Part shown: positions 44,952 to 48,889 of the stretch, piece after piece | How the letters are laid out: each line of letters opens with the position of its first letter | Position numbering within the stretch: position 1 is the stretch's first letter | Source of the DNA: Halorussus litoreus | GTDB taxonomy: Archaea > Halobacteriota > Halobacteria > Halobacteriales > Haladaptataceae | Reading direction: 5' to 3' | Assembly (NCBI RefSeq): GCF_003382685.1 | Contig: NZ_KZ859511.1 | Location: 1-49,287, forward strand | DNA: 49,287 nucleotides | Translations under genes and position numbers: made by a program | The notes under the pieces: model-generated | Databases searched by the model: none | What the model saw: the letters and a program-made list of their open reading frames with translations, nothing else | Told to the model about the DNA's origin: nothing

Positions 44952-46739
44952 ATGAAAGTACGCATCAGCGACGGGGCGACCGACGAGGAAGCCTCCGCCA
45001 TCGCGGAAGCGCTCGCCCAGCACGTCCGCGACGAGGTGTCGGTGTTCGTGGGCGACGCCGACTCGCCCGCCGCAGTCCGCGAATCGCCGGTCGTGCCGTC
45101 GGCGACCGGTGGCGATTCCGGAGCGTCCGCAACCGAGGGGACCGACACCACCGACGACCTCGGACCGACCGAGCGCGAGGAAGCGCTCTGGAAGGAGATC
45201 GAGGACATCGAGTTGGGCGGCCCCGAGAAGTACAAGGAGCGCCTCGAAGAGCAAGGAAAGCTGTTCGTGCGCGACCGACTGGACCTCTGGTTCGGGGAGG
45301 ACGGTCAACTGTTCGAGGACGGGAAGTTCGCCAACTTCGACGCGTGGCACCCCGACAGCCCGGAGGTCGAGGAAGGCAACGACGACCGACTGCCCGGCGA
45401 CGGCCTCCTGACCGGCGCGGCCGAGTTCGAGGGCCGTGAGGTCCACTACATGGCCAACGACTTCACCGTCAAAGCCGGGTCGATGGCCGAGAAGGGCGTC
45501 GAGAAGTTCCTCCGGATGCAACAGCGCGCGCTGAAGACCGGCAAACCCGTGCTCTACCTGATGGACTCCTCCGGGGGTCGCATCGACCAGCAGACCGGCT
45601 TCTTCGCCAACCGCGAGGGCATCGGGAAGTACTACTACAACCACTCGATGCTCTCCGGACGCGTGCCACAGATCTGCGTGCTGTACGGCCCCTGCATCGC
45701 CGGGGCGGCCTACACCCCGGTCTTCGCGGACTTCACCATCATGGTCCGGGACATGTCCGCGATGGCTATCGCCTCCCCGCGGATGGTCCAGATGGTCACA
45801 GGCGAGGATATCGAACTCGAAGAGTTGGGTGGCCCGGACGTGCACGCCCGAGAGTCGGGGAGCGCGGACCTCGTGGCCGACGACGAGGAGCACGCCCGCG
45901 AACTGGTTGCCGACCTCATCAGCTATCTGCCCGACAGCGCCGACGATACCCCTCCGAAGAGCGAGGGCAAGCCACCCGTGAAGTCCCCCGAGGGAATCGA
46001 CTCCATCGTGCCCGAGAAACCCAACAAGGGCTACGACATGACCGACCTGATAGACCGCGTGGTCGACGAGGATTCTTACTTCGAACTCAAGCCCGAGTAT
46101 GGAAAGGAGATCATCACCGCGTTCGCGCGCATCGACGGTCGGCCGGTCGGCATCGTCGCCAACCAGCCCGCTCAGCGCGCAGGGGCCATCTTCCCCGACG
46201 CCGCAGAGAAGGCTGCGGAGTTCATCTGGACCTGCGACGCCTACGAGGTCCCGCTGCTCTATCTCTGTGACACGCCTGGCTTCATGGCCGGCTCGCAGGT
46301 CGAGAAGGATGCGATTCTGGAGAAGGGCAAGAAGTTCATCTACGCAACGTCCTCCGCGACCGTGCCCAAGCAGACCGTCGTCGTCCGGAAGGCGTACGGC
46401 GCTGGCATCTACGCGATGGGCGGCCCGGCATACGACCCCGAGAGCGTGCTCGGCCTCCCCTCCGGCGAGATCGCCATCATGGGACCGGAAGCCGCCATCA
46501 ACGCAGTCTACGCCCGGAAGCTCTCGGAGATCGACGACCCCGAGGAGCGCGCGGAGATGGAGCAAGAACTTCGCGAGGAGTACCGCGAGGACATCGACGT
46601 CCATCGGATGGCCAGCGAGGTCGTCATCGACGAGATCGTGCCGCCGAGCACGCTCCGAACCGAACTGCAGAATCGGTTCGCGTTCTACGAGGGCATCGAG
46701 AAGGAACTTCCGGACAAGAAGCACGGAACGATTCTGTAA
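44952..46739 (+). CDS. pccB: Acyl-CoA carboxylase carboxyltransferase subunit with fused N-terminal epsilon/PccX-like domain
   Basis: A 595-residue protein. Residues about 75-595 form the carboxyltransferase: GGPEKYKERLEEQGKLFVRD, MDSSGGRIDQQTG, GPCIAGAAYTPVFADF, LGGPDVHARESGSADLV and the second oxyanion region YAMGGPAYDPES. It moves the carboxyl group from PccA biotin to propionyl- or acetyl-CoA. Residues 1-45 (MKVRISDGATDEEASAIAEA, LAQHVRDEVSVFVG) look like the small haloarchaeal PccX/epsilon-type subunit, joined by a 30-residue linker. A TTG at 44925 would add nine residues; ATG 44952 begins exactly at the PccX-like domain. pccA and birA are 40 kb away. Confidence 0.93.
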   Translation: MKVRISDGATDEEASAIAEALAQHVRDEVSVFVGDADSPAAVRESPVVPSATGGDSGASATEGTDTTDDLGPTEREEALWKEIEDIELGGPEKYKERLEEQGKLFVRDRLDLWFGEDGQLFEDGKFANFDAWHPDSPEVEEGNDDRLPGDGLLTGAAEFEGREVHYMANDFTVKAGSMAEKGVEKFLRMQQRALKTGKPVLYLMDSSGGRIDQQTGFFANREGIGKYYYNHSMLSGRVPQICVLYGPCIAGAAYTPVFADFTIMVRDMSAMAIASPRMVQMVTGEDIELEELGGPDVHARESGSADLVADDEEHARELVADLISYLPDSADDTPPKSEGKPPVKSPEGIDSIVPEKPNKGYDMTDLIDRVVDEDSYFELKPEYGKEIITAFARIDGRPVGIVANQPAQRAGAIFPDAAEKAAEFIWTCDAYEVPLLYLCDTPGFMAGSQVEKDAILEKGKKFIYATSSATVPKQTVVVRKAYGAGIYAMGGPAYDPESVLGLPSGEIAIMGPEAAINAVYARKLSEIDDPEERAEMEQELREEYREDIDVHRMASEVVIDEIVPPSTLRTELQNRFAFYEGIEKELPDKKHGTIL

Positions 46740-46806: not shown

Positions 46807-47103
46807 TTAGCAGTACGTACCGCACATACAGCAGTCGTAACAGTCGCTACAGCACTCGACGATCTCGCAGTCGTCCGGCGTACTCACGTACTCGTCCTCG
46901 CCGATCTCGTCCCAGAGCCGGGCGAGGTCGTCCTCGCTCGGATCCTCGACTCGCCGGACGACTTCGTCCCGACGAACGACGCGGACCGCGTCGAGGTCGG
47001 CTGCGGTTCGGCGGCTCGCTGGCCGTCGACCGGCCGCGGAACCCATGCCGACGGTCAGTGCGCTCCCTGCCGCGATACCTTTGAGGAGTTGCCTTCGTTG
47101 CAT
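46807..47103 (-). CDS. Tat-exported protein with eight-cysteine C-terminal tail (first)
   Basis: A 98-residue protein. It begins with a twin-arginine signal MQRRQLLKGIAAGSALTVGM with the RRQLLK motif. An acidic/basic middle region (about 30-76) includes VRVVRRDEVVRRVED. The last 20 residues are CEIVECCSDCYDCCMCGTYC, eight Cys (79, 84, 85, 88, 91, 92, 94, 98). A similar plan is encoded at 47891-48166. The tail could bind metal or form disulfides outside the cell; Tat export implies folding or cofactor loading before secretion. ATG 47103 is preferred to a TTG at 47118. An ATTTTATTATC promoter-like stretch lies about 30 bases upstream. Confidence 0.72.
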   Translation of the reverse strand: MQRRQLLKGIAAGSALTVGMGSAAGRRPASRRTAADLDAVRVVRRDEVVRRVEDPSEDDLARLWDEIGEDEYVSTPDDCEIVECCSDCYDCCMCGTYC

Positions 47104-47388
47104 AGCACAAAAATACAATAACTGAGAGATAATAAAATTCTAGTCTGTCGCTCAAAGCCAGTATTCTAGAGTTTCTATTGCTTTCGCGAAATAAAATAGG
47201 ACTGTGTGAGTCCGCGCGGCGGAGAGAGAGGGTCGATGCGGGCTGGCTCATCACGTCCAACCACGTCGTATGCGCCGGTAAGCCCGCGTGTCGGTCGCTA
47301 AAGAGCCGTATAACAATAGCCGGTCCCGTCGTGGTCCGGTTCGTGACGACGCGCCGCGACGGTGACCGACCGTGCGTTCTGATCCCCT

Positions 47389-47760
47389 ATGAGTTCTGAC
47401 CCACAGTATTCCTCGACGCTGACCGCCACCCGGAATCGCGCGATCACCACGCTGTCGGGCGTCGGGCGAGTCGAGCGAGCGCTCTGGCTTCTCGTCGGAG
47501 TGGGACTGCTCGCCGACCTGCTGACGACCTACTACGGCCTCCAGATCGGCCTGACGGAGTCGAACCCGGTCGCGCGAACCGCCATCCACCGGTTCGGGTT
47601 CGCGGCGATGGTCGGCATGAAGCTTGGAGCCGTCGGGGTCGGCGTCGCCTGTCGACGGCTGGTCACGGGTCGACACGCGCTGCTGGTTCCTGCGGGGCTC
47701 GCGGTGCCGTGGCTGGCGGCCGCGCTGGTGAATCTCTCGCTGTACGCGGTCGTTACCTGA
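47389..47760 (+). CDS. DUF5658-like small membrane protein
   Basis: A 123-residue protein with a polar N-terminus and three to four membrane helices (about 30-48, 62-83, 91-120). The stretch LADLLTTYYGLQIGLTESNPVART fits the haloarchaeal DUF5658 pattern, in which a D-x-x-T-T motif and ESNP follow the first helix; this assignment is from memory. The function is unknown. It lies between two genes for eight-cysteine Tat proteins, both on the opposite strand, and is divergent from the first. GTATAACAATA at 47309-47319 is a possible promoter, giving a leader of about 55 bases. Confidence 0.75.
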   Translation: MSSDPQYSSTLTATRNRAITTLSGVGRVERALWLLVGVGLLADLLTTYYGLQIGLTESNPVARTAIHRFGFAAMVGMKLGAVGVGVACRRLVTGRHALLVPAGLAVPWLAAALVNLSLYAVVT

Positions 47761-47890
47761 CAGGATTGGGAAGGGACGACGTCGCCGTGGAACACTGGAT
47801 CCGGATGTCCGTACTCTTCGCCGTACAGGCTGGCCAGTGGGTACGAAACGGAACGATTCTGCAGAGAGTCAGGCACGGGATGTTAGCAGG

Positions 47891-48166
47891 CTAATAACAC
47901 ACGCAAACGTAACAGGGCGTACACGGTAGGCCATTCACGCAGCAACAACATTGGTCACCCGGGTCGTCGGTAGTGTCGAGTTCCGATAACGACGGGGTGT
48001 CCGACCGGCGCTCGAACTCGGACTTCGGTATCACTTCCTCGCGCCCGTCCTCGAACGTCCACGCGACGTGGGTCGGTTCCGAAGACTTCGCCGAGGCGAG
48101 TCCCGATCCGCCGACGGCAGCAGCGCCGACGGTTCCGGCCCGTTTCATCAGGGTTCGTCTATCCAT
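47891..48166 (-). CDS. Tat-exported protein with eight-cysteine C-terminal tail (second)
   Basis: A 91-residue protein with the same plan as 46807-47103. The Tat signal is MDRRTLMKRAGTVGAAAVGG with RRTLMK and cleavage probably after GLASA. An acidic middle (THVAWTFEDGREEVIPKSEF) leads to the Cys tail CCCCVNGLPCTPCYVCVCY (Cys 73-76, 82, 85, 88, 90). Four consecutive Cys are rare. The leader can form GTTAG/CTAAC around AGGAG just before the ATG (48175-48189), so the Shine-Dalgarno-like AGGAG sits in a hairpin loop. Possible roles are metal binding, redox, or an antimicrobial peptide; none is shown by the sequence. Confidence 0.72.
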   Translation of the reverse strand: MDRRTLMKRAGTVGAAAVGGSGLASAKSSEPTHVAWTFEDGREEVIPKSEFERRSDTPSLSELDTTDDPGDQCCCCVNGLPCTPCYVCVCY

Positions 48167-48403: not shown

Positions 48404-48889
48404 TCACTCGGCGTGTTCGCGCTTCAGCGAGAGGACTGTCCGCTCGAACTCGCAGACCAACGTCTCGCCGTCGGCCTCGGTGCCGTCCTCGCCGCGGTTC
48501 ACCGCGAACGCCTCGACGCGCATCGTCACGACGCCGCGCTCGCCGTCGCTGGTCTCGCGCTTGTCGGTGACGGTCGACTGGGCGCGGATGGTGTCGCCGT
48601 GGAAGACCGGATTCGGGTGTTCGACGTCGTCGTAGCTCAGGTTCGCAACGATGGTGCCGTCGGTGGTCTCGGGGATCGACAGCCCCACCGCGAGGCTCAT
48701 GGTGTAGAGGCCGTTGACGAGTCGCTCGCCGAACTGGGTGTCGGCGGCGAAGTCGGCGTCGAGGTGGAGCGGCTGCTGGTTCATCGTCATGTCGCAGAAC
48801 TGCTGGTTGTCGGCCTCGCTGACGGTCCGTCGCTTCTCGTGCTCGTAGGTCTCGCCGACCTCGAACTCCTCGTAGTACAGTCCGGTCAT
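48404..48889 (-). CDS. MaoC-like dehydratase (second)
   Basis: A 161-residue hotdog protein of the MaoC family. It starts MTGLYYEEFEVGETYEHEKR, has the active-site region VSEADNQQFCDMTMNQQPLH with the Asp and His pair, and GERLVNGLYTMSLAVGL and PNPVFHGDTIRAQSTV. It probably acts as an enoyl-CoA hydratase; some relatives act in mesaconyl- or methylmalyl-CoA steps, which would connect with PccA/PccB products, but this is inference. ATG 48889 is the natural start. The 49082-49287 region downstream of its promoter carries no gene. Confidence 0.88.
   Translation of the reverse strand: MTGLYYEEFEVGETYEHEKRRTVSEADNQQFCDMTMNQQPLHLDADFAADTQFGERLVNGLYTMSLAVGLSIPETTDGTIVANLSYDDVEHPNPVFHGDTIRAQSTVTDKRETSDGERGVVTMRVEAFAVNRGEDGTEADGETLVCEFERTVLSLKREHAE

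Follow-up and report, generated by a model that had tools for sequence, protein, structure and literature searches.

At the end of the window, by which we mean the whole analyzed stretch of 49,287 nucleotides from Halorussus litoreus, a carboxyl transferase gene and a MaoC gene enclose an island of three small genes (Table 1). Both minus-strand genes of the island are built as a preliminary description of this DNA had claimed, with a Tat-type start, a charged (acidic) middle and a tail of 19–20 residues containing eight cysteines. The translated ORF of the first, P0001, has the N-terminus MQRRQLLKGIAAG and the C-terminus CEIVECCSDCYDCCMCGTYC with its eight cysteines, and that of the second, P0002, starts with MDRRTLMKRAG and ends with CCCCVNGLPCTPCYVCVCY, which also contains eight cysteines. 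The twin-arginine pattern RRxLLK/RRxLMK is present in the two sequences; the signal of P0002 passed the NCBIfam model TIGR01409 (18 bits versus a cut-off of 16.7), and that of P0001 stayed below the cut-off of the Pfam family TAT_signal (PF10518; 16.3 versus 22.7 bits). The opinion that the two proteins share almost no sequence was slightly too strong, since 63 N-terminal residues could be aligned with 30% identity (E 4e-5). In addition, a homologue at G013:C1:1627512 was matched by P0001 and by P0002 as single queries, and the two types are distantly related. The gene between them had been correctly recognized as DUF5658-like, and its product passed the gathering cut-off of Pfam DUF5658 (PF18902) with 34 versus 25.2 bits.

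Table 1. Features of the Cys-tail island and the genes flanking it
Feature	Position	Strand	Basis or remark
Carboxyl transferase (acyl-CoA carboxylase type), flanking core gene at one island edge	44952..46739	+	
Cys-tail protein 1 (P0001, 98 aa)	46807..47103	-	Tat signal, predicted beta-beta-alpha-beta mini-domain, 8-Cys C-terminal tail
P0001 tail, 20 residues, all 8 Cys, last residue Cys	46810..46869	-	Sequence
P0001 middle region, residues 31-75	46879..47013	-	Predicted beta-beta-alpha-beta domain, pLDDT about 80-90
P0001 Tat-type signal, residues 1-25, RRQLLK	47029..47103	-	Sequence; PF10518 below cut-off
Promoter-like element CTAGAATTTTATTAT	47129..47143	-	40 bp upstream of P0001 start
Second CTAG upstream of P0001	47166-47169		
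DUF5658 membrane protein, between the P0001 and P0002 genes	47389..47760	+	Pfam
Cys-tail protein 2 (P0002, 91 aa)	47891..48166	-	Tat signal, acidic linker, 8-Cys tail
P0002 tail, 19 residues, all 8 Cys	47894..47950	-	Sequence
MaoC / mesaconyl-CoA hydratase-like, flanking core gene at the other island edge	48404..48889	-	Pfam

We searched 1.51 Mb of DNA surrounding the neighboring MaoC gene (80 named haloarchaeal loci) for ORFs that begin in a Tat-like manner and have six or more cysteines among the last 25 residues. Nine were found, all of them in Halorussus species or in two haloarchaeal MAGs, versus none in 4.5 Mb of random sequence generated with a Markov-3 model of equal composition. The Cys-tail ORFs are real genes because the 12 homologous pairs tested showed dN/dS values of 0.07–0.43 over the whole gene. 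Within the tails of orthologue pairs, dN/dS was at most 0.3 where it could be computed. The orthologues are under purifying selection, tails included.

Homologues that align over the full length, the Cys tail included, occupy the same locus in 10 of the 18 Halorussus genomes, and in the other eight the locus has no Cys-tail genes. The copy number there ranges from zero to about four, and gene pairs are not kept as pairs. Further members were found at unlinked loci of Halorussus genomes, in Haladaptatus and in other haloarchaea. A census covering 1.18 of the 3.84 Mb of the H. litoreus genome revealed two more members with 8 and 10 cysteines, respectively (L142:9681-9926 on contig C5 and L143:9560-9844 on contig C11); the former adjoins two genes that, read by eye, are superoxide dismutase-like. 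In an order-wide profile search of 392 genomes, strong matches were confined to Halorussus and one MAG of another family (G035), while full-length members with weaker scores were detected in Haladaptatus and further families. The Cys-tail family is multi-copy and has a patchy distribution in Halorussus and a few relatives.

The short members are 73–128 aa long, with a middle of about 45–50 aa and a tail of 17–48 residues. The preliminary description had expected homologues with a Tat signal and conserved Cys spacing in related genomes, and such a recurring class was found, each subfamily having its own conserved spacing. Several Halorussus types, for example, have the spacing CC-x3-C-x3-C...CC-x5-C, and the spacing CC-x5-C-x(1,2)-C-x-C-x-CC-x-C is common to Halorussus and the Haladaptatus genome G002. 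A tail-only profile run over the 392 genomes retrieved hardly any new subfamilies, which indicates that the tails diverge beyond the reach of profiles. Sequence searches of Pfam, NCBIfam and PDB with the Cys-tail proteins revealed nothing beyond the Tat signals.

Longer proteins of about 200–250 aa also combine a Tat start with an even-Cys C-terminal module. They are encoded at L037, L050, L053, L131 and L158 and, in the H. litoreus genome, at L289:14189-14935 on contig C5; three genes of this kind are arranged in tandem in G208. These proteins differ from the short members in having a middle domain of about 130 residues instead of about 45, and they have no Pfam or NCBIfam family either. The L037 gene shares with the short members the CTAG promoter element described below. 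Another ORF on contig C5 (L291:7654-7923) consists of a repeated GC-rich unit (CGAVRLRGCAVAGL) and probably represents tandemly repeated DNA, not a gene.

In each of the 18 Halorussus genomes, the DUF5658 gene occupies the same position, even in the eight whose locus lacks Cys-tail genes, and most members at unlinked loci have no such gene beside them. The idea that its product recurs beside Cys-tail proteins as their membrane partner was therefore abandoned: it is a core syntenic gene, present with or without them, and its closeness reflects a shared address. Outside Halorussus, three of the six member loci (L147 in G002, L146 in G298 and L141 in G035) fall within the central-carbon gene cluster that is also present in the window, which includes genes for glutamate dehydrogenase, HpcH/HpaI lyase, MaoC/mesaconyl-CoA hydratase and carboxyl transferase. 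Judging from the Pfam matches, this cluster resembles the methylaspartate-cycle neighborhood of haloarchaea. The probability of finding three of six loci in it by chance is about 2e-6 if each locus has a chance of 0.5%, though the profile had been trained mostly on members from this very locus, and common descent of location is the simple reason for the shared address. The carboxyl transferase beside the Cys-tail pair in MAG G035 (L141:10821-12508) reads as two ORFs, representing either a broken gene or an assembly error.

The 75 bp upstream of the start codons are AT-rich, and CTAG often stands just upstream of a TATA-like TTTAT. The pattern CTAG.{3,9}[AT]TTAT, which was derived from the same sequences on which it was counted, occurs in 12 of the 31 short members and in 8 of the 26 non-redundant ones; shuffled sequences gave 0.1, and of 2801 other genes only 1 had it. 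CTAG alone was present in 17 of the 26 non-redundant members, whereas among 229 AT-rich gene fronts it was seen in 24 (Fisher p 1.4e-9), and this tetranucleotide is rare in the genome (526 observed, 1285 expected). Several members have two CTAG 8 bp apart. The element is present upstream of P0001 and absent upstream of P0002. Enrichment of CTAG upstream of transcription starts, with possible methylation control, was reported for Haloferax lucertense (PMC11001535), and part of the signal may therefore be general. That Cys-tail genes share this element hints at regulation by a common factor or by methylation.

The number of cysteines is even (6, 8, 10, 12, 14 or 16) in all 31 short members, with every cysteine located in the tail; four longer proteins built to this plan have even numbers as well. 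Because members of one family do not represent independent cases, no exact probability is attached to this parity. The list of 31 and 4 members came from searches, and parity was recounted under a rule neutral to even numbers, namely a Tat-like start and at least five cysteines in the last 60 residues, applied to all DNA fetched and followed by clustering at 60% identity. The resulting clusters were even in 37 cases and odd in 4. Negative coding scores mark three of the odd clusters, and some of the even ones, as apparent shadow ORFs. The fourth odd cluster is a Rieske-type metalloprotein, so that every clearly coding Tat candidate except this Rieske protein was even. Among ORFs without a Tat start, parity was mixed (98 odd versus 45 even).

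No cysteine lies between the signal and the tail, and the terminal residue is Cys in 24 of the 31 members. Aromatics make up 61 of the 593 non-Cys residues of these tails (10%), with two Tyr each in P0001 and P0002, while only 9 of the 903 tail residues are His; the tails are acidic (153 D/E versus 32 K/R). Pairwise gain and loss of cysteines is the expectation under disulfide bonding, although even counts are common in Cys4 metal sites too. Even numbers, confinement of cysteines to the tail, terminal Cys, aromatics and rare His together favor a disulfide-stapled module over a metallothionein, and we consider it likely that the proteins form an exported class of this kind.

Structure prediction with AlphaFold from a small alignment confidently placed a strand-strand-helix-strand arrangement at residues about 39–74 of P0001 (pLDDT about 80–90), and the middle of the 14-Cys long form of Halorussus ruber had the same layout. 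No confident structure was predicted for the tail of either protein. A fold search with the P0001 model returned no Foldseek match at E <1, and the best VIA-align hit (Z 3.0) was uninformative.

The best explanation, to which we give slightly less than even weight, is that P0001 and P0002 belong to a diversified family of secreted disulfide-stapled mini-proteins that are made as precursors and whose likeliest role is microhalocin-like antagonism. The precursor plan that can be read from the proteins comprises the twin-arginine-type start, the short acidic middle and a C-terminal module of 17–48 residues with every cysteine. Such a precursor would be exported by Tat, its tail would fold through disulfide formation, and extracellular proteolysis at the linker would free the tail; the middle region could act as a pro-domain or chaperone. 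The released small peptide may act on other haloarchaea by analogy with halocin C8, while a signaling or surface role would share the same anatomy. Considered on its own, antagonism toward other haloarchaea is the likeliest single role, and we propose it tentatively. Several observations speak against the halocin-like reading. No recurring immunity, transporter or protease gene was recognized beside the members, and orthologous tails have stayed conserved, showing none of the rapid change that an arms race would leave; further counter-evidence is given below in the comparison with halocin C8.

The lack of a recognized immunity gene would suit an extracellular signaling or surface-structuring peptide, such as a covalent cell-surface cross-linker, that is not a weapon. 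Conservation of orthologues at one locus and the common promoter element, which suggests co-regulation, point in the same direction, but the patchy presence and the change of copy number between close species do not, and we regard this role as unlikely. Other readings concern the thiols themselves. Exported metallothionein-like carriers would bind Zn, Cu or Fe via the thiolates of the tail and be loaded in the cytoplasm before Tat export. Like metallothioneins, the Cys-tail proteins have a very high Cys content (about a third or more of the tail), with CC, CxC and CxxC spacings, and Tat can carry folded, cofactor-loaded proteins. The preliminary description had gone further and taken Tat export to mean a folded or metal-loaded tail, which is not safe in haloarchaea because Tat is their ordinary export route. 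The carrier hypothesis is weakened by the features distinguishing the family from metallothioneins, namely the export signals, the strictly even number of cysteines in every member, the aromatics and the scarcity of His. Furthermore, neither P0001 nor P0002 matched a metallothionein model of Pfam-A or NCBIfam (E <= 1), and no metal transporter or metalloregulator was recognized among the neighbors read by eye. The carrier hypothesis appears improbable.

We likewise attach a low probability to a cell-envelope thiol/disulfide buffer or oxidant sink, whose tail would be sacrificed or cycled under oxidative stress. The Cys-only tails, the superoxide dismutase-like neighbors of the paralogue on contig C5 and a DoxX-like gene adjoining the G298 member agree with such a function; these neighbors, however, are not constant, and the conserved subfamily-specific Cys spacing would be needless for a mere thiol sink. 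The suggestion of a secreted redox pair found no specific support, as pairs are not conserved and the copy number at the locus varies. Finally, the proteins could be precursors of ribosomally synthesized and modified peptides (RiPPs), for example lanthipeptides modified by LanM. The known archaeal lanthipeptides (PMC10105419, PMC12144867) are also small Cys-containing haloarchaeal peptides, but they need LanM and Ser/Thr, and neither fits the Cys-tail proteins. LanM-type genes do occur in 13 of the 28 family genomes, and the H. litoreus genome has two (PF13575; C15:42642-43805 and C16:76424-77530), located on other contigs away from the Cys-tail genes. On the other hand, Halorussus aquaticus (G012), whose genome is complete, carries three Cys-tail genes but lacks any LanM match, no modification enzyme was recognized in the islands, and the tails offer very little Ser/Thr to pair with Cys (one Ser and one Thr per eight cysteines in P0001, one Thr in P0002). 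With no linked LanM recognized, this very improbable route was rejected.

Among known systems, the disulfide-stapled precursors proposed here most invite comparison with halocin C8, a 283-aa precursor with a long HalI (immunity) middle that is exported by Tat and cut outside the cell into the C-terminal 76-residue peptide and the immunity part (PMC11509114). Both are haloarchaeal Tat-type precursors with a Cys-rich extreme C-terminus, and an even number of cysteines and a terminal Cys, the latter seen in most Cys-tail members, recur in the halocin C8-like protein described next. The Cys-tail proteins are much shorter in precursor and tail. The peptide of the halocin C8 family has 10 paired cysteines; P0001 and P0002 have 8 in the tail, an even number as in all members. 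Our survey also turned up a protein (L137 in G162) that looks like a halocin C8-type precursor; it has 10 cysteines in the C-terminal part, a terminal Cys and a middle of roughly 170 residues. BLASTP against it gave E 0.10 for P0001 and, over 14 signal residues only, E 0.003 for P0002, revealing no homology beyond the signal. Membership in the halocin C8 family was therefore not adopted: the architecture agrees, the sequence does not, and a long HalI-type middle is missing. The described halocins are, moreover, hydrophobic (PMC11509114), unlike the acidic Cys tails. Of the three meanings offered in the preliminary description, a halocin-like peptide with a membrane partner fared best in its first half, and the partner fell away. 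Another secreted haloarchaeal precursor processed outside the cell is HFX_0892 (HapP) of Haloferax mediterranei, from which an extracellular protease releases the active peptide (PMC12893001). There the active part is an N-terminal alpha-helical segment, and cysteines or disulfides are not mentioned in PMC12893001.

The Tat-exported Cys-rich haloarchaeal peptide precursor as a kind is already known from halocin C8. The compact form, the diversity and the even-Cys rule appear new relative to the libraries searched, and some of the genes may figure in the survey of Makarova et al. 2019. A broader generalization, which we find doubtful at this stage, is that haloarchaea possess a dedicated repertoire of secreted mini-proteins that are rich in disulfides and regulated together, much like the defensin-like peptide arsenals of other organisms. 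In such a repertoire, many independent Cys frameworks would be built on a single Tat precursor plan and switched by a common CTAG-TATA promoter element. Sequences are known for few of the peptides that archaea use as weapons or signals, and the halocin that has been described best is made as a long precursor. The Cys-tail proteins are short, exist in several copies, lack annotation in Pfam and NCBIfam, and can easily be expressed. Provided that their tails are secreted and disulfide-stapled, they would offer a tractable system for studying how dense disulfides form in extremely halophilic archaea and could show whether Tat exports such tails oxidized or reduced and what roles these peptides play between cells. 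The shared promoter element makes the regulation of Cys-tail genes directly testable.

Two minor observations were made in other genomes. In two unrelated genomes, a Cys-tail gene was found close to a thermosome-like subunit gene (L080:9211-9489 and L145:9964-10311), and L130 (G176) encodes a hydrophobic 10-Cys C-terminal region resembling the halocin C8 type.
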